From an uncultured Pseudomonadota bacterium (GTDB lineage: Bacteria; Myxococcota_A; UBA9160; UBA4427): a DNA stretch of 42,692 nt. The stretch lies in the NCBI GenBank assembly GCA_913054385.1, contig CAJXIC010000001.1, forward strand, positions 1 to 42,692. The letters are read 5' to 3'. The translations under genes were made by a program, and so were the position numbers. The notes beneath the pieces are model-generated. The model was not told the DNA's origin. It ran no database searches and saw only the letters and a list, made by a program, of their open reading frames with translations. Every line of letters starts with the position of its first letter. Positions within the stretch are counted from its first letter, which is position 1. This document shows positions 6,805 through 32,764 of this stretch, in pieces.

Positions 6805-8001
6805 CTACTCGTCGGCGGTGCACACGACGCCAACGCCGGCGCAATAGCTCGCGCAGGTCGTGCCCCGATAGGTGGCGGCGGCGTAGTAGAGCCCGCCGGC
6901 GTGCAGGCGCGGGAAGGCGATGGTTTCGACAGCAAAGCTTTTGGGGTCGACCGCGAAGACACGTCCCGACCAGGTCGTGACCAGAACGCGGCCGGTCTCC
7001 CCGACCTCGATCCCCTGGGCGAAGTCGAGTCTGCGATCGAAGAGGGGGTCCAAGAGGATACGCCGCGCCCCGGCCAGGTCGGCTTTCGGGTTGCCGGGGG
7101 GCAGCACGAAGAGTTCGAGCCCGTTCCCGGTGGCGACCGCGAAGTACCCGGTGGCGTCGCCTGCGAAAGCGAGGATCTGCACCTCGACGTCGTCGATCCG
7201 CGCCACCTGGGCGCCGGCAAGGTCAAGGACGAGGGTCGGGTGGCCGCTGGCTCCGGCTGCCGCCGGCAGCTGATCGCTGGTGACCCAGGCGAGTTGGCGA
7301 CCCGGGTCCCAGGCGACCGACTTGGGGAGCACGCGCTCGTCGCTTCCCTCGCTGCCGAGGGAGAATTGGCCCAGCAGGTTTCCGTCGAGATCGATCCAGA
7401 GCAGCGCACCGCCAGTGTTCTCAGCCGCGGCATAGCGCGTCACGAAGAGTGTTCCGTCCGGCCCCCGCGCCCACTCGTTGAGCCCCTTCCCCAGCTGGTC
7501 GAAGCGTTGGACGGCTCCGCTTTCGAGGTCGCGGAAGCCCGAAACGCCGTAGAAGACGCTGAAGTAGAGGCGCCCGTTCTCATGGGCCAGGACATCCCAG
7601 ACACCGGCGGCACGGCCTCGTGCCAGCGTCAGTGCGGGCAGGAACGCGCGCCTCTCGAGGTCAAAGCGTCCGATGACCTGGGGACCTTGGCCCTCGAGCA
7701 CGCCCAGCGGGGAACCGCTGTCGCGCAGCCCCTGCCAGAACGCCGAGACCCCGAAGTAGAGCACGCCCTCGCGGGCGTCGGCGTACCAACTGCAGACAGC
7801 GCGCCGCTCATCAGCGCCTGGCGATTCGCCCCGGAAAACCTCGAATCGCATCGAAGGGGGATCCGAAGTCGGGGGCGGTAGCGGCGGGCTGCAGGCCGCA
7901 GCAAGGAGCAGCGCGAGAGAGCAGACCGAAACGACTGTGCAATTTAAAATGGCACTGCAATATTTAGATGCTCTCGTATTTTTCCCCAGCAACTTCAGCA
8001 C
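6805..8001 (-). CDS. Predicted lipoprotein, beta-propeller-like repeat protein
   Basis: No specific family recognised. The N-terminus carries a lipoprotein signal: hydrophobic SVCSLALLLAAAC with the lipobox Cys at residue 37 if translation begins at the GTG at 8001, followed by a proline-rich linker. The remaining ~360 residues alternate short beta-strand segments with glycine turns (ARGPDGTLFVTRYA, IDLDGNLLGQF, IEVGETGRVLVTTWSG), as in SMP-30/NHL-type propellers. A cysteine-containing C-terminus (TTCASYCAGVGVVC) could form disulfides. The frame is open upstream to 8091 (TTG, then ATG 8070), but that stretch is AT-rich, lacks a ribosome site and overlaps a candidate plus-strand promoter, so I prefer 8001. 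Probably anchored to a membrane, sensing or binding role unknown. It is followed by pepP after 17 nt. Confidence 0.65.
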   Translation of the reverse strand: MLKLLGKNTRASKYCSAILNCTVVSVCSLALLLAAACSPPLPPPTSDPPSMRFEVFRGESPGADERRAVCSWYADAREGVLYFGVSAFWQGLRDSGSPLGVLEGQGPQVIGRFDLERRAFLPALTLARGRAAGVWDVLAHENGRLYFSVFYGVSGFRDLESGAVQRFDQLGKGLNEWARGPDGTLFVTRYAAAENTGGALLWIDLDGNLLGQFSLGSEGSDERVLPKSVAWDPGRQLAWVTSDQLPAAAGASGHPTLVLDLAGAQVARIDDVEVQILAFAGDATGYFAVATGNGLELFVLPPGNPKADLAGARRILLDPLFDRRLDFAQGIEVGETGRVLVTTWSGRVFAVDPKSFAVETIAFPRLHAGGLYYAAATYRGTTCASYCAGVGVVCTADE

Positions 8002-8009
8002 CTTGTGTC

Positions 8010-8038
8010 TTGTCTGTCCCGAAAAACGGGTGTAATTC
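8010..8038 (+). promoter_or_regulatory. Candidate sigma-70 type promoter of a plus-strand RNA
   Basis: TTGTCT (8010-8015) and TAATTC (8033-8038) are separated by 17 bp. The spacer contains a CCCG/CGGG inverted repeat around A5. No plus-strand gene follows, but a strong terminator lies at 8242. Confidence 0.3.
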
Positions 8039-8043
8039 GGGGA

Positions 8044-8275
8044 GGAGTGATGCCATAAAAAGATGCACATCGAAAAGGGAGTGCCACCCAAACCCGTGCA
8101 AATTCAAACAGTTGGGGGAGCTCGGAGAAAATTCGAGCTGGCACGGATCCTGCTATTGGAACAGTCCGTGGATCCGGCAATTGTGCCGTAGGTGTTTAAA
8201 TACGGGCGCGTTCATCTACGGTCGCCGGGTCCCGATCTTGACCCCTCGGTTGGTTTTACCAGCCGGGGGGTTTTT
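8044..8275 (+). ncRNA. Candidate small RNA of about 230 nt
   Basis: This noncoding, AT-richer interval lies between the lipoprotein and RNase D genes. On the plus strand it starts after a promoter-like pair (8010-8038) and ends in a 12-bp terminator stem with T5 (8242-8275). Internal stems can be drawn: AGCTCG/CGAGCT (8119-8139), then GGCAC/GTGCC (8140-8144 with 8183-8187) enclosing two GGATCC arms (8145-8150 and 8170-8175). I could not match it to 6S RNA, tmRNA, SRP RNA, RNase P or a known riboswitch. The boundaries are inferred, and the alternative is an unusual intergenic spacer. Confidence 0.35.
8242..8275 (+). terminator. Strong rho-independent terminator without an upstream plus-strand gene
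   Basis: Twelve consecutive pairs (two are G-U) form between CCCCTCGGTTGG and CCAGCCGGGGGG around a TTTTA loop, directly followed by TTTTT. The T-run direction is plus, away from both minus-strand neighbours. Confidence 0.7.
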
Positions 8276-8309
8276 CGTTGCTCCCCAGGAGGAGCCCGAC
8301 GGCCCCTGG

Positions 8310-9545
8310 CTAGTCCTCGCCTTCGGATCCCCCACCGCCCCTGCGCCCTCGCGGCCGGCGGGAGCGTCTCCTGGGTTCGCTGCTCTCGGGCGGGGGTGAG
8401 GCTTCTCCCAGCAATTGGACGATCTCCTCGCCGAAGGCTCCGACGAACCAACGCTTCATCCCGGGTAGTTCGTCGAAGTCGCTGACCTGCTCGGGGTTCT
8501 TGAAGGCGATGGTTTCGAGCGAAGCGTTCGAGCACAGGACGCCTGGATCCATTTTAAGTTCGACCGATCGCGGTGCGCGCCACTTCTTCAGCAGCCCGAG
8601 TCGGTACTCGGTGCGTCCGTCCAGTCGGCGTCGCCCGGTGCTCTCCGGCTTCGGAATCGGGCCGTGGGGTTTTTCGGAACCCTTCTCCACGGCTTCGAGA
8701 AGTTCCTTCCCCATCCGGCGCATGATCAGGTCGCTGACCCCGGAGATTCGCGTCATGGTCCTCTCGGTCGTGGGCCGGGTCTCGGAAATTTCCAACAGCG
8801 TGCGATTTCCGATCACCTTGAACGCCGGGCGGTCGATCTCGCGAGCGCGCCGATCACGGGCGAGGTAGAGCTGCTTGAGCACGGCCAGCGCGTCCATGTC
8901 GAGCTTCCGCGCGCCTTTGATCTTGAGGTAGCCGAGGTCGTCGAAGAGGCGCTCGGGCCATTCTCGGGCCATCAGGGTCCGGAATTCATCTTCTGCCCAG
9001 GAGAAACGTCCGGCCTGCTTGAGTTCGGCGGTGAGGTTCTCCACCAGGCGAATCAGGTAGAGGACATCCGACGCAGCGTACGAGAGTTGGCTCTGACTAA
9101 GGGGTCTTCGCGACCAATCCGAGCGCTGCTCGTCCTTTGCCAGCTTGATCCCGAAGTGGTGTTCGATCAGCGCCGCCAACCCCACCTGCGAGTAGCCGAG
9201 CATTTGCGCGCTCAGCATGGTGTCGAAGACGTTCGCAAAGGCGAAACCGCAATCGCGCTTCAGCACGAAGAGGTCGTACTCGGCGGCGTGAAAGATCACC
9301 TGGACGTCGGGGGAGGCGAACACCGGGGCCAGCGGGGCGAGGTTCGCGGGGCCCCCCATTGCCAGCGGATCGATCAGGTAGCAGCCGGTCGGCGTGGCGA
9401 CCTGCACCAGGCAGGTTTTGTCGAAGTAGTGGTAGAAGCTGTCCGCTTCGGTATCGAACGCGACCGATTTCTCGCGAAGTAGCGAATTGGAAAGACGCTC
9501 GAGGTCCTTCTGGTTGTCGATGATCTCGAAGTCCGCCAAGCCCAC
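8310..9545 (-). CDS. rnd: Ribonuclease D
   Basis: A DEDD-family 3'-5' exoribonuclease involved in tRNA 3'-end trimming, about 411 residues. Exo I has D31 and E33 (AFDTEADSF), Exo II has D91 (FHAAEYDLFVLK), and Exo III has Y156 and D160 (YAASDVLYLI). An HRDC domain follows at roughly 200-290 and the C-terminal half matches the second helical domain of RNase D. The last ~35 residues are a low-complexity Arg/Gly/Ser tail (RRRSRRPRGRRGGGG) that could bind RNA. The start is uncertain: GTG at 9545 is used, while TTG at 9539 has a GAGG better placed 6 nt upstream. The open frame further upstream is not family-like. Divergent from the IclR gene. Confidence 0.92.
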   Translation of the reverse strand: MGLADFEIIDNQKDLERLSNSLLREKSVAFDTEADSFYHYFDKTCLVQVATPTGCYLIDPLAMGGPANLAPLAPVFASPDVQVIFHAAEYDLFVLKRDCGFAFANVFDTMLSAQMLGYSQVGLAALIEHHFGIKLAKDEQRSDWSRRPLSQSQLSYAASDVLYLIRLVENLTAELKQAGRFSWAEDEFRTLMAREWPERLFDDLGYLKIKGARKLDMDALAVLKQLYLARDRRAREIDRPAFKVIGNRTLLEISETRPTTERTMTRISGVSDLIMRRMGKELLEAVEKGSEKPHGPIPKPESTGRRRLDGRTEYRLGLLKKWRAPRSVELKMDPGVLCSNASLETIAFKNPEQVSDFDELPGMKRWFVGAFGEEIVQLLGEASPPPESSEPRRRSRRPRGRRGGGGSEGED

Positions 9546-9733
9546 CCTCGATCCGGGGGGTCGAGTCGTAAAAAAGGTCGTCGTGCCCGTCGCCGCCGTT
9601 TCGCGCGGCCGGGTGCCAATGTTCGAAATTGGGGGACGAAGGTGCCGCGGAAGGGAGCTTCGCGGCGAGATCAGCCTAGCCGAAGCCAGGCTGGATAGAA
9701 AGGAGTAGGGGCTGAAACCATCCTCAGATCTCC

Positions 9734-9779
9734 AATATCCGAGTTGTTCTGATATTCGGAACCGTGTACCATTATATGG
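9734..9779 (+). promoter_or_regulatory. Divergent promoter region with inverted repeats, candidate IclR-type operator
   Basis: The 281-nt gap between rnd and the IclR gene has an AT-rich core. It holds AATATC/GATATT arms (9734-9739 and 9751-9756) and CCAT-TAT-ATGG (9769-9779). TTGTTC at 9744 with TACCAT 17 bp later could be a plus-strand promoter. IclR-family regulators commonly bind such palindromes in their own promoter, so autoregulation is a reasonable guess. Confidence 0.35.
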
Positions 9780-9826
9780 AACAATGAGCGAAGCCCTTCG
9801 GCTTTGCCCGCAGCGGGAGTGATCCG

Positions 9827-10591
9827 ATGCGTGCCGCCAGCACGAGTGTCGAGAAAGCCGTGGATCTCCTCTTCCACCTGCACGCGGCCTCGGCTCCCGA
9901 GGGCGTGACGGCGATTGGCCGTGCGCTGGGTCTGCCGAAGTCGAGCGCGCATCGCATCTTGCGCTCGCTCCGTCGGCGCGGCCTCGTCGAGCGCGACGCA
10001 CGCGGGCGCTACGCCCCGGGCATTGGCCTGCTCGCCCTCGGGCTCGGCGTGATCGAAAGCGAGCCGATCGCTGCGGCCGCCCGCCCCGTGCTCGAGCGCC
10101 AGGCCGACGCCGTCGGCGAAACCTTTTTTCTGGTGGTGGCGCGGGCGGACCACTTGATCGTGCTCGACAAGGTCGAGGGCAATGGTTTTTTGCGCGCCGC
10201 ACCGCGGGTGGGCTCCAGCGTTCCGGTCCACGCCACCGCCGCCGGGAAGCTCTACCTCGCCTACGCCCCCCAGCGTTTCGAAGCCGCCCGGGCGGCGTCG
10301 GAATCGCGCGTCGCCTTCACCGAGGAAACGCAGACCGATGCACGCGAACTCGAAGCCGAGGTCGAGCGCGTTCGCAGTCGCGGCTGGGCGGTCAACCGCG
10401 AAGAGTGGATTCCGGGGCTCTCGGTGCTGGCAGCACCTGTCATGCGACGCGGAGGCATCGCCGGAGTGGTCGCGCTTGCCGCGGCGTCGGCGAACTTCGA
10501 GGCCCTCGGCGGCGAGGCACAGAGCGAGCGTGTCGTCGCAATGGCAAGGGAGATCGGGGAGTGCCTCGACGGCCGGAAGGTGGCGCCGTGA
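9827..10591 (+). CDS. IclR-family transcriptional regulator
   Basis: A 254-residue regulator. The N-terminal winged helix-turn-helix (STSVEKAVDLLFHL, then GRALGLPKSSAHRILRSL near 34-51) is typical IclR_HTH. Residues ~75-250 form the GAF-like IclR effector domain, seen as PVHATAAGKLYLAY and GWAVNREEWIPGLSVLAAPV. The start is supported by GGGAG 7 nt upstream. Its TGA overlaps the GTG of ilvE (GTGA), so the two are translationally coupled, and it may control the ilvE-proS-acyl-CoA dehydrogenase-exonuclease chain. The effector is unknown; small organic acids or amino-acid catabolites are typical for this family. Confidence 0.93.
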   Translation: MRAASTSVEKAVDLLFHLHAASAPEGVTAIGRALGLPKSSAHRILRSLRRRGLVERDARGRYAPGIGLLALGLGVIESEPIAAAARPVLERQADAVGETFFLVVARADHLIVLDKVEGNGFLRAAPRVGSSVPVHATAAGKLYLAYAPQRFEAARAASESRVAFTEETQTDARELEAEVERVRSRGWAVNREEWIPGLSVLAAPVMRRGGIAGVVALAAASANFEALGGEAQSERVVAMAREIGECLDGRKVAP

Positions 10592-11454
10592 AGGTCTGGA
10601 TCGACGGCGCGATCGTAGATGGACCGGATGCGAAGATTCCCGTCACCGACCACGGTCTGCTCTACGGAGACGGGGTCTTTGAGGGAATCCGTGTCTATGG
10701 CGGTGCGGTCTTTCGCCTCGCCGACCACCTGCGTCGCCTGGCGGCCGGAGCGCGAGCCATTGGCCTCGAGATTCCGGGGGGGCTGCCTGGGGTCGAGAAG
10801 ATCCTGCGTGCCACGGCCATCGCCTACGCCGCGCCCGATGCCTACATCCGGCTGCTGGTGACGCGCGGAGACGGCGAGTTGGGAGTCGATCCCACCTCCT
10901 GCACGAATCCGCGCATCGTGTGCATCGTCGACGAGGTCCGGCTGTACCCCGAGGCGAAGCGCAAAAGCGGTCTGGATCTGATCACCTCGAGCCTGCGCAA
11001 GCCGAATGCCGATGCCCTCGATCCGCGGATCAAGAGCCTGAACTACCTGAACAGCGTTCTCGCAAAGCGCGAGGCGCGTCTTGCGGGTGCCGACGAAGCC
11101 CTGCTGCAGAATGCCGCGGGCCGGGTTGCCGAGACGAGCGTGGCGAACGTGTTCGTCTACCGGCACGGGATTCTGCGCACGCCCCCCGCGACCGACGGCG
11201 CCCTCGAAGGCATCACCCGCGACAGCGTCCTCGAGATCGCATCCGAAGAGGGGCTGGGCGTGCGGGTCGAGAGCCTCGGCCGCTTCGATCTCTTTGATGC
11301 AGACGAGGTCTTCCTCACGGGAACCGGTGCGCGGATCGTTCCCGTGGCGACCCTCGACGGGCAGCCCATCGGCGAGCCGGGCGTGCACCCGCTGACGGAT
11401 CGCCTCTCGCTTGCCTTCACGGACTACACGCGCTGTCATGGGAGCCCGCTCTAG
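10588..11454 (+). CDS. ilvE: Branched-chain amino-acid aminotransferase (class IV PLP enzyme)
   Basis: A 288-residue fold-type IV aminotransferase that interconverts Val/Leu/Ile and their 2-oxo acids. GDGVFEGIRVYGG (27-39), YIRLLVTRG, the PLP lysine in IKSLNYLNSVLAK (K149) and the Glu in GRVAETSVANVF (about E182) are present. 4-amino-4-deoxychorismate lyase and D-amino-acid transaminase share this fold, but SLNYLN and the length favour a BCAT. The GTG start overlaps the IclR stop by 4 nt; ATG-type starts are absent nearby. Coupling with an acyl-CoA dehydrogenase of the branched-chain type two genes later is consistent with branched-chain amino-acid catabolism. Confidence 0.88.
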   Translation: MKVWIDGAIVDGPDAKIPVTDHGLLYGDGVFEGIRVYGGAVFRLADHLRRLAAGARAIGLEIPGGLPGVEKILRATAIAYAAPDAYIRLLVTRGDGELGVDPTSCTNPRIVCIVDEVRLYPEAKRKSGLDLITSSLRKPNADALDPRIKSLNYLNSVLAKREARLAGADEALLQNAAGRVAETSVANVFVYRHGILRTPPATDGALEGITRDSVLEIASEEGLGVRVESLGRFDLFDADEVFLTGTGARIVPVATLDGQPIGEPGVHPLTDRLSLAFTDYTRCHGSPL

Positions 11455-11535
11455 CGAAGGCACTCGCCGGAGGCCGCCGCCCCGAGACTCCACGCTATCT
11501 TTCTCGCCCCTCGTTTCGCTCCGGGAGTTCTTGCC

Positions 11536-13251
11536 TTGCGCTGGTCCACCAGTTTCATTCCGACCCTTCGTGACGACCCGGCCGATGCCGAGGCGGTGAG
11601 CCACAAGCTCCTCGTTCGCGGCGGCTTCGTGCGCCAGTTGATGGCCGGGGTCTACTCGCTGCTGCCGCTCGGCTTGCGGGTAAAGGCGAAGATCGAAGGC
11701 ATCGCACGCGACGAGATGAAACGCATCGGCGGCCAGGAGTTCCTGCTACCGATCCTTCACCCGGGCGAGCTCTGGAAGCGTTCGGGACGCTGGGATCAGA
11801 TCGGCGACGAACTCTTTCGCCTGCAGGACCGCCGGGGGTCGGACGTCGCCCTCGCCATGACCCACGAAGAGGTCTTCACCGTCGTTGCGGGCGAATTGCG
11901 TTCCTACAAGCAGTTGCCCCAGGTCTGGTTCCACATCCAGACGAAGCTCCGAGACGAGGCGCGACCCAAGAGCGGAATCTTGCGGGTGCGCGAGTTTACG
12001 ATGAAGGATTCGTATTCGTTCGACCGCGACGATGCCGGTCTCGACGCCGCCTTCGACAACCATTTGAATGCTTACCGGCGCTTCTTTCGGCGCTGCGGCT
12101 TCGAGGCGATCGCCGTCGAAGCTTCTTCGGGCGTGATGGGGGGCAACCAGTCGGTCGAGTTCATGCTCGCCTCCGAGGCGGGGGAAGACTGGATCGCTTC
12201 GTGCGCTGCGTGCGGCTACGCGGCAAACCTCGAGAAGGCCTCTTCGACGCTCCCCGCCCCCGAGGACCCGGAGAGCGCCGGGGTGATCGAGAAATTCGCG
12301 ACCCCCGACGTCCACACCATTTCGGAGCTGGCGAATTTTGCCGACGGCGGCGTACCGGCCGAGCGCCAGATCAAGACCCTGGTCTACCGCGCCGGCAATG
12401 AAACCCTGTTGGTGCTGTTGCGGGGCGACCACACCCTCGCCGAGCAGAAACTCCTCGATTCGGTCGAGGCCACCGAAGTGCGCCCGGCTTCGGAGAAAGA
12501 AATCCGCGCGGCCCTCGGCGCTTCACCGGGGAGCCTCGGGGCGGTGGGCGTTACGAATTGCATCGCAATCGTCGACGAAGCCCTGCGCGGACGCCGCGGG
12601 ATGGTCACCGGGGCCAACGAAGACGGTTACCACCTGCGCGGCGTCGACGTCGACCGCGACATCGAAGCGCGCGCCTTCATGGACCTGCGCGAAGTCAGCG
12701 ACGGCGAGGGCTGCCCGGTCTGCGAGGCGCCGATCGCGGTCTTCAAGACCATCGAGGTCGGCCACATCTTCAAGCTTGGCACGAAGTACAGCGCGGCCCT
12801 CGGCGCGAAGGTCCTCGACGAAAACGGCAGTCCCGTGCCCATCGTGATGGGCTCCTACGGGATCGGGATCGAGCGCACCATGGCTGCGGTGGTCGAAGCC
12901 AGCCATGACGAGGCCGGGATCTCCTGGCCCGTCAACATTGCGCCCTTCGAAGCCGTGGTCACGGTCCTGAACCCAAAGGATGTGAAGGTTTCCGAGACGG
13001 CGGAGCACATCTACGAAGATCTGGTCGCCGCCGGGATCGACGTCCTCATCGACGACCGTCACGAGCGGCCGGGCGTGAAATTCAAGGACGCCGAACTCAT
13101 CGGCATCCCTTACCGGATTACGGTCGGGCCAAAGGGTGTCGAGAACGGGGTCGTCGAGTTCATGCGGCGCAGGGACGGCGAATCGCGCGAGGTCGAAATC
13201 GCGCGCGCAGCAGAGACGGCCGCGGAAGCGGTGTTGGAGGAGCGATCCTGA
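11536..13251 (+). CDS. proS: Prolyl-tRNA synthetase (bacterial type with editing domain)
   Basis: A 571-residue class II synthetase charging tRNA-Pro. The N-terminus MRWSTSFIPTLRDDP is diagnostic. Class II motif 2 is around LRDEARPKSGILRVREFTM and motif 3 is GSYGIGIERTMAA. Between them sits the INS editing insertion (about 225-400, with GDHTLAEQKLLDSVEATEV) that hydrolyses Ala-tRNA-Pro. The C-terminal anticodon-binding domain ends the protein. The start is a TTG at 11536, fixed by GGGAG 8 nt upstream and by the family N-terminus. Its TGA overlaps the next ATG (TGATG), coupling an essential synthetase to a catabolic dehydrogenase. Confidence 0.97.
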   Translation: MRWSTSFIPTLRDDPADAEAVSHKLLVRGGFVRQLMAGVYSLLPLGLRVKAKIEGIARDEMKRIGGQEFLLPILHPGELWKRSGRWDQIGDELFRLQDRRGSDVALAMTHEEVFTVVAGELRSYKQLPQVWFHIQTKLRDEARPKSGILRVREFTMKDSYSFDRDDAGLDAAFDNHLNAYRRFFRRCGFEAIAVEASSGVMGGNQSVEFMLASEAGEDWIASCAACGYAANLEKASSTLPAPEDPESAGVIEKFATPDVHTISELANFADGGVPAERQIKTLVYRAGNETLLVLLRGDHTLAEQKLLDSVEATEVRPASEKEIRAALGASPGSLGAVGVTNCIAIVDEALRGRRGMVTGANEDGYHLRGVDVDRDIEARAFMDLREVSDGEGCPVCEAPIAVFKTIEVGHIFKLGTKYSAALGAKVLDENGSPVPIVMGSYGIGIERTMAAVVEASHDEAGISWPVNIAPFEAVVTVLNPKDVKVSETAEHIYEDLVAAGIDVLIDDRHERPGVKFKDAELIGIPYRITVGPKGVENGVVEFMRRRDGESREVEIARAAETAAEAVLEERS

Positions 13252-14411
13252 TGTCGAGGGCGCTGACCGATCTGGGTGAAGAGGAACGCATCTTCCGGGA
13301 AACCGTACGCGAGTTTGCGGACGAAAAACTGGCACCGCTGGCGGCGTCGATGGACCGCGAAGGCAAGCTCGATGAGAAAGTGATTCCCTGGCTCTTCGAG
13401 CTCGGCCTGATGGGGATCGAGATCCCCGAAGAGCACGGCGGAGCGGGCGCGAGTTTCCTGATGGCGATTCTCGCGATCGAGGAGATCGCCCGGGTCGATC
13501 CGGCGGTCGCCGTCGTTTGCGATGTGCAGAATACGCTCTGCATCAATGCCATCAGGCGCTGGGGCAACGAGGAGCAGCAGGCCCGGTTCTTCGGGATGCT
13601 CGCCAGCGGCACCGTTGGCGCCTACGCCCTCTCCGAAGCGAACTCGGGAAGCGATGCCTTCGCGCTGCAGTGTGCCGCACGCGAGGACGGCGACGATTAC
13701 GTCCTGGACGGCCGCAAGCTCTGGATCACCAACGCGGCCGAGGCGGGCCTCTTTCTCGTGTTTGCAAACGTCGCTCCCGAAGCGGGTTATCGCGGGATCA
13801 CGGGCTTCGTCGTCGAACGCGAGATGGCGGGCTTCTCGGTTGGCAAGAAGGAAGACAAGCTCGGGATTCGCGCCTCGAGCACCTGCGAGCTGATCCTCGA
13901 AGGTGTGCGTGTGCCGAAGGCGAATATTCTGGGCGTGGTCGGCGAGGGCTACAAGGTCGCGATCGAGACGCTGAACGAGGGGCGCATCGGGATCGGCGCC
14001 CAGATGGTCGGGCTCGGCCGTGGCGCCATCGAGGGGGCGCTCGCCTACGTGCAGGAGCGCGAACAGTTCGGTCGCAAGATCAGCGAGAACCAGGCGGTGC
14101 AGCATCGCCTCGCGCGCTGCGCCACCGAACTGGAGGCGGCGCGCCTGATGGTCTACAACGCCGCGCGTCTCCAGGAAACCGGTCGCCCCTTCCGCCAGCA
14201 AGCGGCGATGGCGAAGTGGTTCGCGAGCGAGGTGGCCGAGCGCGCCGCCAGCGAGTGCCTCGAACTCTACGGGGGCATTGGCTTCACGAAGGAGTGCCCG
14301 GCCGAGAAGCTGCTGCGCGACGCGAAGATCGGGAAGATCTACGAGGGAACCTCCTTCCTACAACTCGAGACGATCGCGAAGACGCTGATCAAAGAGGGTC
14401 TTGGCGATTAG
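13251..14411 (+). CDS. Acyl-CoA dehydrogenase (short/branched-chain type)
   Basis: A 386-residue FAD enzyme oxidising acyl-CoA to 2-enoyl-CoA. N-terminal helical domain (FREFAD-like FRETVREFADEKLAP), middle beta domain with AYALSEANSGSDAFALQ and WITNAAEAG, then the C-terminal domain with REQFGRKISENQAVQ and LYGGIGFTKECPAEKLLRD. The catalytic base is expected at E365 in IYEGTS, the position used by short- and branched-chain dehydrogenases rather than by isovaleryl/long-chain enzymes. The ATG overlaps the proS stop by one base. The 3' end overlaps the exonuclease gene by 11 nt. Electron transfer flavoprotein genes are not in the window. Confidence 0.95.
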   Translation: MSRALTDLGEEERIFRETVREFADEKLAPLAASMDREGKLDEKVIPWLFELGLMGIEIPEEHGGAGASFLMAILAIEEIARVDPAVAVVCDVQNTLCINAIRRWGNEEQQARFFGMLASGTVGAYALSEANSGSDAFALQCAAREDGDDYVLDGRKLWITNAAEAGLFLVFANVAPEAGYRGITGFVVEREMAGFSVGKKEDKLGIRASSTCELILEGVRVPKANILGVVGEGYKVAIETLNEGRIGIGAQMVGLGRGAIEGALAYVQEREQFGRKISENQAVQHRLARCATELEAARLMVYNAARLQETGRPFRQQAAMAKWFASEVAERAASECLELYGGIGFTKECPAEKLLRDAKIGKIYEGTSFLQLETIAKTLIKEGLGD

Positions 14412-27779: not shown

Positions 27780-27783
<4 letters not shown>

Positions 27784-28298
27784 TGAGAGGTGTCCAGTCG
27801 GGCCGATGCGACGTGCTGCGGCTGACTACGGGCACCGGGTTCAAAGACCGGGTCGCGCCCGAGGATTTCGAGAGGCGAGGTGCTGGCGCTGAAACACGGG
27901 TCGGCGAGGTCCGCGAGGGTCACTTGCGACAGCGCGCGCTTGACCACCCGGTTGATTACAAACCAGGGGCCGCGCACCGGGCAGCCGGCTTCGTGTTCGC
28001 AGATGTGCGGGCCGAGGTTGCACTCGGTGAGGGCGACCGGGCCCTCGAGTGCCGTCACCATTTCGGAGACGCTGATCTCGCCGGGCGCGCGCACCAGGCT
28101 GTAGCCGCCCTTTGGACCCCGCTGCGATTCGAGCAGGCCGCGGCGGGCCAGGGCCTTTAGCACCTTGCTCACCATCGGAAGCGGCAGGTCGACTTCAGCG
28201 GCGACCTCCCGGGCCGCGTGCGGAGCGTCGCCGCCGTGGCGCGCGAGGTGCGCCAGCAGCACGATGCCGTAGTCGGTGATCTTCGAGAGTCGAATCAT
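27780..28298 (-). CDS. sufR: Rrf2-family SUF operon regulator
   Basis: A 172-residue winged-helix regulator with a predicted Fe-S cluster. The HTH is around residues 27-50 ([21 protein letters not shown]), the beta wing is [13 protein letters not shown], and the cysteines C93, C100 and C106 (spacing x6, x5) sit where IscR-type regulators bind [2Fe-2S] or [4Fe-4S]. The spacing is close but not identical to IscR (x5, x5). The C-terminal tail of about 40 residues is longer than usual and may be disordered. It leads the operon, so it most likely represses the SUF genes through the palindrome at 28373 and is relieved when clusters are lost. The symbol sufR denotes function by analogy, not cyanobacterial SufR. 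Confidence 0.85.
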
Positions 28299-28493: not shown

Positions 28494-29777
28494 CTAAGCC
28501 CGTGTGCTCCGAAGGCCCCGGGGAGAGAGGCCTGCCAGCAGCGGTCCCCCATCCGGGTGCCAACCGAAGGGCGGCGCCTGCATCCCACCGGCTGCCACCA
28601 CGCGCGAGGCGCCGGCGGCCCTGAGTTTGGCTTCGAAATCGGGGGAGTCGCCCGCTGTGTCGATCGCGACCCCGTCGACCGACACCGCAGCCAGGTGGGA
28701 CCCGAGCGGGAGCAGGGCCACCCGTGCCTCGTCTGGGGTCGCCACCCGATACACCCGCACGAATCGGTGTAGCGGTGTGCTGCGCCAGTCGCTCGCTGGC
28801 TCGAGGACCACGGTAAAGGCGTCGTCGTCGGGAGCCATGAGCGCCACCTCCTGCCCGGCGGCCGCGCGGAACCTCGCCTCGTCGCGCGCATCGCGGATCG
28901 CTGCCTCTACGCCGGCGCCGATTCGGCCGCGCGGCCAGCGCGCTTCGAGACTGCGGAGTGCCTCGGCGAGGGCACGCGCCACGGCTTCCACGCGGGAGCG
29001 GTCGCCCACCGCGTAGACCGCTGCCGTCGACAGGCAGCCGAGTTGGTCCCAGAGAGCGACATCCCGGGCGGCGCGCTCCGCCCAATCTTCCGCCTCAACG
29101 TCTGCTCCGACGATCGCCAACGAGAGGCGGTGGCCATGACCGACGAAGCGTTGCCCGCTGGGTGTTCTCTCGCGAATTCGCTCCAATGTTGCGTCGCTTC
29201 CCGAAGCCACGAGGCAGGGAAGCTGGACGAAGGCATCAATGGCCGGGGCGTCGTCGGATGCGAAATCGCAGATCTCGATACAACGTGCGAGCAGGGGATG
29301 GAACTTCGCCAGGCTTCGGGCGAAGAGCTTCGGGGTCACGCGGTCGCGCCCTGCGGGTTTCACCAACACGGGCGATCCGAGCAGCAGCGGGAGTAGCAGC
29401 GCCTGCAGCGTTGGCATGGGGATCGATCCCGCGAGGATGCAGCCGGTCAGGGGGAAAGCCGACAGTGGTGAAGCAGCCCTCGAATCGAGGTTCGCGGGGT
29501 CCCCTACTTCGTTCTCGATCAGAGCTGCGAGGGCGCTGCCGTTCCAGTCCTCGAGCGCCAGGCGTAGCCCCGCCCGGATGGTCTCCGGGTGAAAGCCCGC
29601 GTGCGATGCGAGCTGCTCCGTGCACGCGGACTGGAAGGCTCCGAGTGGATCCGCGAGTGCGTCGAGTAGCTGCTGTAGGGCCGCAATGCGCTCCGCTGCG
29701 GGAAGCCTTCGCAGTTCCTGCCCGGCTTCCTGCAGGCGGAGCTGGGCTGCCCGGATGTCGGCGGCCTGGGCGCTCAC
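28494..29777 (-). CDS. luxC-like: LuxC-like acyl-CoA/acyl-protein reductase
   Basis: A 427-residue protein of the LuxC acyl-CoA reductase family (PF05893), which reduces an enzyme-bound or CoA-linked fatty acyl group to an aldehyde with NADPH. The N-terminus is helical; the dehydrogenase core contains GCILAGSIPMPTLQALLLPL and LGSPVLVKPAGRDRVTP. The likely catalytic cysteine is C248 in LWDQLGCLSTAAVY, corresponding to the acylated Cys of Vibrio LuxC. The length is a little shorter than Vibrio LuxC (about 480). The start is a GTG overlapping the LuxE stop (GTGA). No luxAB, luxD or flavin oxidoreductase is nearby, so bioluminescence is unlikely. Confidence 0.88.
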   Translation of the reverse strand: MSAQAADIRAAQLRLQEAGQELRRLPAAERIAALQQLLDALADPLGAFQSACTEQLASHAGFHPETIRAGLRLALEDWNGSALAALIENEVGDPANLDSRAASPLSAFPLTGCILAGSIPMPTLQALLLPLLLGSPVLVKPAGRDRVTPKLFARSLAKFHPLLARCIEICDFASDDAPAIDAFVQLPCLVASGSDATLERIRERTPSGQRFVGHGHRLSLAIVGADVEAEDWAERAARDVALWDQLGCLSTAAVYAVGDRSRVEAVARALAEALRSLEARWPRGRIGAGVEAAIRDARDEARFRAAAGQEVALMAPDDDAFTVVLEPASDWRSTPLHRFVRVYRVATPDEARVALLPLGSHLAAVSVDGVAIDTAGDSPDFEAKLRAAGASRVVAAGGMQAPPFGWHPDGGPLLAGLSPRGLRSTRA

Positions 29778-30895
29778 GTCCCGGTTTCGAGCATGCTGTC
29801 GGCTGCGATGGAACAGCCGCGTTCCTCGGCTCCCGGCTCGCGCCCGAGAATCTCGAAGCGCTCATCAACAGAGCCCGCCGTGAAGCGCCCCAGGTCGGCG
29901 GTCTGGATCGCCGCCACGCTTCCGGTGTTGGCGAGGTCGTGGATCACGATCATTCCCGTCCGGTCGGGGCCGACGTCGTCTCCCGACCCGGGGTCGATCA
30001 GGCGAACCCGGGTCCAGGGCGGAGTGGGTTTTCCGGGGGGAGCGCCCTCTTCCTGCAGCGGGCCGTCGTAAAACTGGCTCCCGAGTTCGGTCATCCCGTA
30101 TTGATTCAGGACGTGTGAACCCGGCAATCCGAAGCGCTCCCCGATCATCGCATGGAGATCCGGCCGAGACACAGAACGCGATCGCCCCTTGAACCCTCCG
30201 GTTTCAAGGACGCGGCTTCCGGTCGGAAGCTCGAGGCCCGCGCTCCCGCGCTCTTCGATTTCGTCGAGCAGATGGACGAAGGCGAAGGCGGTGCCGCAGA
30301 TTGCCAGCGGTCGGTTGGCATGGCGCGAGCGCAATACGGCTGCGAGAAAGTTTTCGACACAGAGCTTTGTGTCCTCGAGATCGTGACCGCTGCTCTCGTC
30401 GCCGAAAATTTCGAGCGCGCGGTCGAACATGTGCGAGAGCGAGGAGTCGGGGGCTTCCTGCGCACTGGGGGCCAACACCCGGATCGTCATCCGTTCCCCG
30501 CCCTCGAGGTCGGGGAAGACGAAGCGACGCAGGGAGGCCTCGAGGGAGGTTTCGTAGAGCGCGAGGGTGTCGAGGTGGAGTTCGCCGCGGCGCGCGATGC
30601 TGGTTCCGCTCGTGCGGAAGATCTTGCAGGTCGAAGCGGGGTCGAAGCCGGCGAGCCGCACCTCCTTGAAGGCCCCGGTCGGGACGGTGGGGATGTCGCG
30701 CCAACTCGCGACCTCGCCGGGCACGCTGCCCTGGCTCCGGCAATAGCGTGCGTAAGGCACGCAGGCTTCGAATTGGTGGGCGAAGAGACGCAGCGCGAGC
30801 GAGTCGAAACGCGTTTCGTCGTGCTGCCAGGGGGTTTCCCGCATCCATTCGAGAATCTCGGAATCGAGCGCCGCGCGCGAGGTCTTTTGCGTCAC
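29774..30895 (-). CDS. luxE-like: LuxE-like acyl-protein synthetase (fatty-acid activating ligase)
   Basis: A 373-residue protein of the LuxE/acyl-protein synthetase family, which makes an acyl-AMP and loads it on its own cysteine. The AMP-binding FRTSGTSIARRGELHL, the region VLNQYGMTELGSQFYDG and the C-terminal RGCSIAADSM are all present. The cysteine in the latter (C361) aligns by position with the acyl-accepting cysteine near the C-terminus of Vibrio LuxE. It starts at a GTG overlapping the aminotransferase stop and its own stop overlaps the LuxC start, so all three proteins are expected in equal amounts. Substrate fatty or other carboxylic acid is unknown. Confidence 0.9.
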   Translation of the reverse strand: MTQKTSRAALDSEILEWMRETPWQHDETRFDSLALRLFAHQFEACVPYARYCRSQGSVPGEVASWRDIPTVPTGAFKEVRLAGFDPASTCKIFRTSGTSIARRGELHLDTLALYETSLEASLRRFVFPDLEGGERMTIRVLAPSAQEAPDSSLSHMFDRALEIFGDESSGHDLEDTKLCVENFLAAVLRSRHANRPLAICGTAFAFVHLLDEIEERGSAGLELPTGSRVLETGGFKGRSRSVSRPDLHAMIGERFGLPGSHVLNQYGMTELGSQFYDGPLQEEGAPPGKPTPPWTRVRLIDPGSGDDVGPDRTGMIVIHDLANTGSVAAIQTADLGRFTAGSVDERFEILGREPGAEERGCSIAADSMLETGT

Positions 30896-32169
30896 GAGAA
30901 GCCCCTGCAGACGCGGTCGAGAGCGTCTTCGAAGCCGTCCCGAGGGATGCCGAGAGGGGGCGTGAGCGAAAGGACTCGCCCGTCGTCGCCCGCCGGAAGC
31001 GTGATGACTCCGCGCTTTAGGGAATCGACCCAGACCTGCTCGACGCGCTCGCTGCTTTGGCATTCGATTCCGAGCATCAGGCCGCTGCCGCGGACTTCGG
31101 TGACCTCGGGGTGATCGGCGAGTCGCCCTTTGAGGTAGGCCAGCGCGAAACGGCCGCTGTCTCGGGCTGCGTCCGCCAGCGATTCCTCTTCGATCACGGC
31201 CAGCGCCGCGAGCGCGGCCGCGCAACCCACCGGGTGCCCGAGAAAGGTCTGGGTGTGGAGCGATTCGCCTGTCGAAATCGGCCAGGCGGCCATCACCTCG
31301 GCCCGGGCGAGGCACGCGGCAATCGGCATTCCGCCGCCGAGCGCCTTCCCGACGCAGAGCACGTCGGGGATCACGCCTTCGTGTTCGCAGGCGAAGCGGA
31401 TTCCGGTGCGACCGAGGCCTGTGTAGATCTCGTCGACGATCAGGAGCCAGCCGTTGGCATCGCAGACTTCTCGCAGCGCTTCGAGGAAGCCCGGTTCGGG
31501 GATGCGGATGCCCCCGCGCCCCTGCACCGGCTCGACGAGGATCGCGCCGACCTCGAAATCGGCGTCACGTCCGCTGCGCTCGGCGTCGACGGCGTCGCCG
31601 AAGCGGGCGAAGGCGGTCTGGCGCGGTAATCGTGCGCTGAAGGGTTCGCGGAATTCGCTGCGCCAGGTGGTGTCGAGCGCGCCCAGGCTGAGTCCGTGGT
31701 ACGCCCCTTCAAAAGCGACGATACCGGGTCGTCCGGTCGCGAGCAGCGCCGTCTTGAGCCCGGCCTCGACCGCATCGGACCCCGAACTCCCGAGGATCGC
31801 CCGCGCCGCGACTCCGCCGGGATAGAGAGCCGTGAGTGTCTCGAGCAGTCGGGTGCGAACCGATGTCGGGTGAACGTCACCCATCCCGTGGAGCAATCGT
31901 TCGGCCTGATCCGAAATCGCCTCGACCACCCGCTGGTGGGCGTGCCCGATTGCGGCGACGCCGAAGGCCGCGTCGAGATCGACGTAGCGATTTTCGTCGA
32001 CGTCCCAGACGTTCGCGCCGCGAGCGCGTTCCCAGAAGATCGGAGCGTCGGGCTCGAGGCAGGTGACGTTCGGACTCTCCACCGCCCGAAGGCGCGTGGC
32101 GAGCGCCAGCGATCGCGGTCCGGGAACCGCGGTTAGAAGGTCCGGGGGCAGGCAGGCCGTCGACGACAC
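30892..32169 (-). CDS. Class III (omega-type) PLP aminotransferase
   Basis: A 425-residue fold-type I, class III aminotransferase. The PLP lysine is K275 in VLCVGKALGGGMPIAA, D246 in IVDEIYTGLGRTG binds the pyridine ring, and GSSGSDAVEAGLK provides phosphate contacts. The acceptor is unknown; relatives act on acetylornithine, 4-aminobutyrate, lysine or aldehydes. The start is a GTG at 32169; the frame is open further upstream, but there it overlaps the folK start on the other strand. Its stop overlaps the LuxE GTG. Sitting ahead of acid-activating and acid-reducing genes, it is well placed to aminate the aldehyde they make. Confidence 0.88.
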   Translation of the reverse strand: MSSTACLPPDLLTAVPGPRSLALATRLRAVESPNVTCLEPDAPIFWERARGANVWDVDENRYVDLDAAFGVAAIGHAHQRVVEAISDQAERLLHGMGDVHPTSVRTRLLETLTALYPGGVAARAILGSSGSDAVEAGLKTALLATGRPGIVAFEGAYHGLSLGALDTTWRSEFREPFSARLPRQTAFARFGDAVDAERSGRDADFEVGAILVEPVQGRGGIRIPEPGFLEALREVCDANGWLLIVDEIYTGLGRTGIRFACEHEGVIPDVLCVGKALGGGMPIAACLARAEVMAAWPISTGESLHTQTFLGHPVGCAAALAALAVIEEESLADAARDSGRFALAYLKGRLADHPEVTEVRGSGLMLGIECQSSERVEQVWVDSLKRGVITLPAGDDGRVLSLTPPLGIPRDGFEDALDRVCRGFS

Positions 32170-32230
32170 CGCGCCAGTGTAGCTGTACCCTCCGGGGTCT
32201 CGATTGGCAGAGCATCGATCGGAGGAGTGC

Positions 32231-32764
32231 GTGGCGACTGGCAGTGGCGACGGGGCTGCGCGGGTGCTCGCGACGCTGGGCCTGGGTTCGAACCTCGGTG
32301 AGCGCGAGCAGCATCTGGCGGTCGCGTGCTCGGCGCTGCGAAACCTCCCGCACACGGACTGGGTCGACGCTTCCCGGGTTTTCGAGACCGATCCGGTGGG
32401 GGGCCCTCCCCAGGGCCCCTACCTGAATGCCGTGGTGCGGATTCGCACCGGGCTCGCGGCGCGCGCGCTGCTCGAATCGCTGCTCGAAATCGAGCGACTC
32501 GGCGGTCGCGAGCGCGGGGGCCCGCGCTTCGGTCCGCGCAGCCTCGACCTCGATCTGCTGCTCTACGGCGACAACCGGGTGGACGAGGTGGGCCTGCAGG
32601 TGCCGCATCCGCGGCTTCCCCAGCGCCGGTTCGTCCTGGCCCCGCTCTGCGACCTGGCCGCCGCCGAGCGTCATCCCGTCCTCGGCAATTCCTTTGCAGA
32701 GTTGCTTCGAAAACTCCCCGACGATGCTGCCGGCGTCCGCGTGATCGACGGGCTGTCGCTATAA
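32231..32764 (+). CDS. folK: 6-hydroxymethyl-7,8-dihydropterin pyrophosphokinase (HPPK)
   Basis: A 177-residue enzyme of folate synthesis, transferring pyrophosphate from ATP to the pterin. The family motifs GLGSNLGEREQHL near residue 17, FETDPVGGPPQGPYLN, RGGPRFGPRSLDLDLLLYGD and VPHPRLPQRRFVLAPL are intact, including the two aspartates of DLDLLLYGD that bind magnesium. The start at 32231 (GTG) is preferred because GGAGG lies 5 nt upstream; a TTG at 32204 is in frame but has no ribosome site. No folP or folB is adjacent. Divergent, 61 nt, from the aminotransferase. Confidence 0.95.
   Translation: MATGSGDGAARVLATLGLGSNLGEREQHLAVACSALRNLPHTDWVDASRVFETDPVGGPPQGPYLNAVVRIRTGLAARALLESLLEIERLGGRERGGPRFGPRSLDLDLLLYGDNRVDEVGLQVPHPRLPQRRFVLAPLCDLAAAERHPVLGNSFAELLRKLPDDAAGVRVIDGLSL

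Follow-up and report, generated by a model that had tools for sequence, protein, structure and literature searches.

A 42,692-nucleotide stretch of contig CAJXIC010000001.1 of assembly GCA_913054385.1 (positions 1 to 42,692), referred to here in its entirety as the window, carries three minus-strand genes that encode a class III, pyridoxal phosphate (PLP)-dependent aminotransferase (AT), a LuxE-type acyl-protein synthetase, and a LuxC-type acyl-thioester reductase. These genes, together called the trio, and the role proposed for them in the synthesis of queuosine are the subject of this report. All three open reading frames have GTG starts and each successive pair shares 4 nucleotides, an arrangement described in an earlier note on this DNA and confirmed at the positions given in Table 1. 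That note read the trio as a possible path from a carboxylate through an aldehyde to a primary amine, with fatty acids as the substrates to try and an amine, amino-lipid, or signal as the suggested product.

Table 1. Genes of the trio and their conserved neighbours in the window
Feature	Position	Strand	Length (aa)	Family	Proposed role or context
Class III (PLP) aminotransferase (AT)	32169-30892	minus	425	Pfam PF00202	proposed 7-formyl-7-deazaguanine to preQ1 transaminase
LuxE-type acyl-protein synthetase	30895-29774	minus	373	Pfam PF04443	proposed CDG-activating ligase
LuxC-type acyl-thioester reductase	29777-28494	minus	427	Pfam PF05893	proposed reductase of the CDG thioester to 7-formyl-7-deazaguanine
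folK (HPPK)	32204..32764	plus		PF01288, TIGR01498	divergent neighbour of the trio; outside the proposed step
SUF-system Rrf2 regulator	27780..28298	minus		TIGR02944, above cut-off	conserved downstream neighbour; outside the proposed step

Each protein scores above the cut-off of its Pfam family. AT matches Aminotran_3 (E=9e-94, 315 bits against a cut-off of 30.5), the LuxE-like protein matches LuxE at E=1e-13 (51 bits; curated cut-off 24.9), and the LuxC-like protein, the sole PF05893 match in its genome, matches LuxC at E=6e-42 (144 bits; curated cut-off 21). The catalytic residues also align with those of solved structures. Lys275 of AT (codon 31347-31345) corresponds to the PLP lysine of acetylornithine and putrescine aminotransferases (1vef/4uox), enzymes that are the nearest to AT by sequence among solved structures. 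The LuxC-LuxE complex 7xc6 is the one structure matched by either of the other two proteins; Cys361 of LuxE (codon 29815-29813), the acyl-accepting residue of the C-terminal RGCS motif, aligns with the LuxE cysteine in 7xc6_E, and the catalytic Cys248 of LuxC (codon 29036-29034) with the LuxC cysteine in 7xc6_A. The families, the RGCS cysteine, and C248 had all been named in the earlier note and are borne out by these alignments. Mean column identity of AT is 73% (17 relatives), and the LuxE motifs TSGTS, YGMTE, and RGCS are invariant or nearly so among 19 relatives.

Comparison with the narrower NCBIfam equivalogs gives a different result. Against the acetylornithine, ornithine, and GABA models, AT reaches at best 208-288 bits, below every one of their cut-offs (372-850). 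The alternative that AT is a standard ornithine/GABA enzyme, raised in the earlier note, was examined in part, through these scores, and AT falls far under all of the models. Likewise, the pair reaches 51 bits where the long-chain LuxE and LuxC equivalogs demand 550 and 750, well short of what defines the lux fatty acid reductase.

The trio is flanked by the divergent folK and cysH on one side and by SUF genes on the other, and no luciferase, LuxD, or flavin reductase lies beside it, in agreement with the earlier account. Both folK and the Rrf2 regulator recur as neighbours of the trio when the genes of related loci are clustered.

Conservation of the trio

Of 61 genomes from the window's own order or family, 59 carry a relative of LuxE. 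At the loci fetched from these genomes, AT, LuxE, and LuxC directly adjoin one another in a constant order wherever enough of the contig is available. By profile search, the LuxE family occurs in 232 of 284 Myxococcota genomes, with the AT-LuxE-LuxC order kept in most of the families sampled; named LuxE relatives come mostly from Myxococcota and from metagenome-assembled genomes (MAGs) labelled 'Deltaproteobacteria.' The earlier note had held that lack of conservation elsewhere would speak against its own reading, and the adjacency proves to be conserved. This conservation is not chance. Its near-universal, phylum-wide extent points to core metabolism rather than to a lipid or signal cluster. 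No phage or viral copies were found.

A second LuxE subfamily forms a separate clade (SH-aLRT 96), is not accompanied by AT, and groups with LuxE-LuxC pairs from plasmids. The plasmid homologues are about 40% identical and belong to this different clade, and two of them have short-chain dehydrogenase (SDR) partners; on plasmids of Azospirillum and Pantoea (L211, L212), the LuxE-LuxC pair is followed by the SDR gene, with ABC transporter genes close by, as a separate acid-reduction pathway. At three Myxococcota loci (L187, L204, L197), in genomes that also bear the trio, a gene with an N-terminal GxGPAGL FAD-binding motif immediately precedes an additional LuxE-LuxC pair of the non-trio kind. 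Three genomes (G199, G161, G260) carry the non-trio subfamily in addition to a trio-type copy with AT.

Relation to the queuosine pathway

In the known route to queuosine, 7-carboxy-7-deazaguanine (CDG), the carboxylate product of QueE, is normally converted by QueC and then QueF to 7-aminomethyl-7-deazaguanine (preQ1), the aminomethyl base used by Tgt (PMC13329287, PMC11130926). As the conversion of CDG to preQ1 is the same net change as the chemistry predicted for the trio, the trio is proposed to supply this step where it is missing. If it replaces QueC and QueF, the two gene sets should be mutually exclusive, with the remainder of the pathway shared.

The distribution of these genes among the 284 Myxococcota genomes follows this expectation. 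With presence called at E<=1e-20 for LuxE and E<=1e-18 for QueF, thresholds placed by the analyst at clear score gaps, QueC is found in 5 of the 226 LuxE-positive genomes (221 lack it) and QueF in 0 of 226; in the 58 LuxE-negative genomes the corresponding counts are 35 and 30. Restricted to 193 high-quality genomes, the pattern is the same: 3 QueC and 0 QueF among 164 with LuxE, 23 QueC and 21 QueF among 29 without it. The other steps are widely retained, with Tgt in 278 of 284 genomes, PTPS/QueD in 162 of 179, and QueA in 170 of 179; FolE is also carried by the trio genomes. Outside the window's own order, QueE is detected at E<=1e-40 in 117 of 173 genomes that have LuxE and lack QueC, and further genomes of this kind have other QueE types (e.g. 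G208, TIGR04508 at 4e-104). Ten additional genomes with LuxE and LuxC, eight of them from other phyla, all encode Tgt, and canonical QueC was found in none of the ten. Weak QueC matches, which span about 60 residues and mostly score <35 bits, probably represent other ATP-pyrophosphatases, and weak QueF matches (22-32 bits) are probably FolE, as in the window's own genome (G000), where such a match falls on the FolE reading frame.

Physical linkage provides a second type of evidence. In a Verrucomicrobiota locus (L131), queE (7690-8337) is followed by AT (8627-9865), luxE (9917-11110), and luxC (11074-12408); in a Bacillota locus (L134), a single cluster runs from PTPS/queD (8749-9246) through queE (9250-9900), luxE (9998-11122), and luxC (about 11119-12552) to AT (12556-13890). 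All of these family assignments were confirmed by profile. The Bacillota AT shares only about 31% identity with that of the window, and in the window's own order the queuosine genes do not adjoin the trio. Other core acid-to-amine pathways (biotin, pantothenate, arginine/lysine, and heme) were weighed from general knowledge only and were dropped once queE had been seen next to the trio.

G000 is a MAG of 455 contigs and 91% completeness in which the rest of the pathway can be located. PTPS, PTPS, and FolE lie in a row on contig 274, QueA adjoins Tgt on contig 150, and contig 181 encodes a radical SAM protein resembling QueE, for which QueE models give the best NCBIfam scores, although below cut-off. 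Profile searches of this genome found neither QueC nor QueF, an absence that counts only jointly with that in other genomes because the assembly is fragmented. Typical of the order is a divergent lineage of QueE-like radical SAM proteins that carry a CxxxCxxC motif (L190:3366-4139 in G000; L209:5069-5935), and most genomes of the order, G000 included, have two Tgt-family matches.

Several lineages show other combinations of these genes. Eight genomes of families f22 and f24 (G084, contig 4 = L301; G104, G135, G143, G186, G198, G243, and G267), all with LuxE and without QueC, encode divergent QueF-like T-fold proteins that fall under the threshold (E about 1e-15). PTPS matches are missing as well from several of these families, and the T-fold proteins might stand in for QueD or be relatives of QueF that serve a different function. 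QueC is present, and both QueF and trio-type LuxE absent, in families f42, f45, f28, and part of f14, which may reach preQ1 in some other way or may use preQ0 instead. In G120, which has LuxE and three Tgt matches, a canonical QueC and a QueC paralogue lie about 2 kb apart on contig 41 (L295), in a region that might be a DNA-modification or defence island.

Some apparent exceptions to the complementary distribution can be examined at the level of subfamily and motif. The QueC-positive genome G173 has only a LuxE of the non-trio clade, without AT, and is counted among the supporting observations. Canonical QueC motifs include YxQxHxxE and VPxRN (PMC13329287). Neither is present in the QueC-like protein of G004, and that of the Verrucomicrobiota genome G303 lacks both of these as well as YPDC.

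A proposed route to preQ1 and its alternatives

Taken with the identities, order, and active-site residues of the three genes, their synteny, the absence of QueC and QueF, the presence of the other queuosine genes, and the clustering with queD and queE point to a route from CDG to preQ1 that is independent of QueC and QueF and yields the base that Tgt inserts into tRNA toward queuosine; we put the probability of this reading at roughly 0.8. Substrate, formyl intermediate, cofactor preference, and product are inferred from the chemistry of the families. On that basis, LuxE would adenylate the carboxylate of CDG at the expense of ATP to give CDG-AMP and would then accept the acyl group on Cys361 (CDG-S-LuxE), from which it would pass to Cys248 of LuxC (CDG-S-LuxC). 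Reduction of the thioester by LuxC with NAD(P)H would release 7-formyl-7-deazaguanine, and AT, with PLP and an amino donor, would convert this aldehyde to preQ1. Because pyrrole aldehydes are only weakly electrophilic, transamination may require a good donor or the pull of Tgt.

A number of observations weigh against this proposal. AT is not adjacent to the other two genes in some families (f18, f48, Gemmatimonadota, Chloroflexota), and LuxE-LuxC pairs occur elsewhere in other pathways. In three genomes a trio-type or unclassified LuxE occurs alongside a whole or partial QueC: G120 has a canonical QueC and a paralogue, G192 a QueC with one motif altered, and G282 a fragment at a contig end. 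LuxE and QueC are both missing from a few genomes, the QueE of the window's own order is divergent and under the family cut-offs, and no preQ1 riboswitch was found at the trio loci. Phylogenetic dependence is a further confounding issue. Fisher p values for LuxE against QueC/QueF (about 1e-21 to 1e-25) take no account of phylogeny. A QueA tree of 80 genomes was used for label changes and independent pairs. Its strongly supported branches require the label 'LuxE only' to change at least 8 times and 'QueC only' at least 4 times, and among independent pairs the traits are opposite in two to three, the same in almost no sampling, and without difference in the rest. As these pairs are too few for significance, the Fisher values are not to be taken at face value, and the independent weight for the proposed route comes from the logic of the missing step and from the gene clusters.

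One alternative leaves the trio in queuosine metabolism and places it at another point or gives it another product, with LuxE and LuxC, for example, acting on CDG and AT elsewhere, or the outcome being a different 7-substituted deazaguanine. The non-adjacency of AT in several lineages that have LuxE and lack QueC and the low identity of the Bacillota AT to that of the window are consistent with this, but AT is adjacent in most lineages and lies inside both queE-linked clusters, and the product that is missing is an amine; we consider this alternative improbable.

The proposal that LuxE and LuxC act on a fatty acid or another lipophilic acid, with AT aminating the resulting aldehyde toward a lipid or signal, draws on the family names and on the alignment of both proteins with the fatty acid reductase complex of the Photobacterium type. 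Scores far below the long-chain models argue otherwise, as does a trio that is near-universal in order and phylum, complements the missing QueC and QueF, and adjoins queD and queE in other phyla. Because of this spread and this link to queuosine genes, the fatty amine, lipid, or signal cluster was demoted and is now very improbable. What stands of the earlier interpretation is a conserved unit whose families fit the sequence from acid through acyl thioester and aldehyde to primary amine; the fatty acid substrate and the amine lipid or signal product are not supported. The inference was thus right in kind and probably wrong in substrate and role.

Least probable of all is that these organisms salvage preQ1 or queuine from the environment, with the trio unrelated and the complementarity of LuxE a lineage effect. 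In its favour, bacteria that lack QueDECF commonly rely on salvage (PMC11130926), the genes show strong clustering on the tree, and the pairwise correction has too little power. Against it, the described salvagers lack QueDECF as a block (PMC11130926), the trio genomes retain QueE and PTPS, and the single queD-queE-luxE-luxC-AT cluster would be left unexplained.

If the CDG-to-preQ1 assignment is correct, the trio likely represents a widespread second bacterial route to preQ1 that avoids preQ0, QueC, and QueF, predominates in Myxococcota, and extends to Verrucomicrobiota and Bacillota at the least. It would be a nitrile-free route with a named gene set, and a luminescence-type pair annotated as fatty acid enzymes would turn out to take part in tRNA modification. 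QueC and QueF are used to mark preQ1 synthesis, as in a survey from 2024 that assigned pathway type by whether QueD, QueE, QueC, and QueF were present (PMC11130926). Most Myxococcota would then have been misread as non-makers. A literature search, with subscription journals and preprints mostly outside its scope, returned no description of QueC/QueF-independent preQ1 synthesis by LuxE, LuxC, and an aminotransferase and nothing on 7-formyl-7-deazaguanine or on preQ1 with Myxococcus, and queuosine combined with LuxE and aminotransferase gave unrelated work only.

Comparison with known systems

The proposed route is a variant of a known pathway assembled from known enzyme families. It shares with QueC and QueF the proposed start (CDG), the end (preQ1), and the place between QueE and Tgt, but the protein families are unrelated. 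QueC and QueF proceed through amide and nitrile intermediates with ammonia as the source of nitrogen, whereas an aldehyde and a transaminase donor are proposed for the trio. From family chemistry, the cost would be one ATP and one NAD(P)H for the trio, compared with two ATP and two NADPH for QueC and QueF.

AT resembles LysJ/ArgD and the putrescine aminotransferases in fold family, in the PLP lysine, and in the amination of an aldehyde carbon. It differs in falling below all equivalog cut-offs and in its partners, which are LuxE and LuxC rather than a kinase and a semialdehyde dehydrogenase.

With LuxC-LuxE of luminous bacteria (7xc6), the trio has in common both families, the aligned key cysteines, and, as proposed, the order of action: adenylation, thioester on the LuxE cysteine, transfer to the LuxC cysteine, and reduction. 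Unlike the luminous system, it has an aminotransferase partner and no adjacent LuxD, luciferase, or flavin reductase, it scores far below the long-chain equivalog models, and its proposed substrate is a polar heterocyclic acid. A homologous acid-reducing module is also found in the LuxE-LuxC-SDR and FAD oxidoreductase-LuxE-LuxC operons of the Azospirillum and Pantoea plasmids and some Myxococcota, where LuxE belongs to the separate clade, AT is absent, and both the acid and the fate of the aldehyde are presumably different. If the trio does make preQ1, LuxE and LuxC would appear to form an acid-reducing module of general use, with the partner, whether transaminase, SDR, or luciferase, deciding the outcome.

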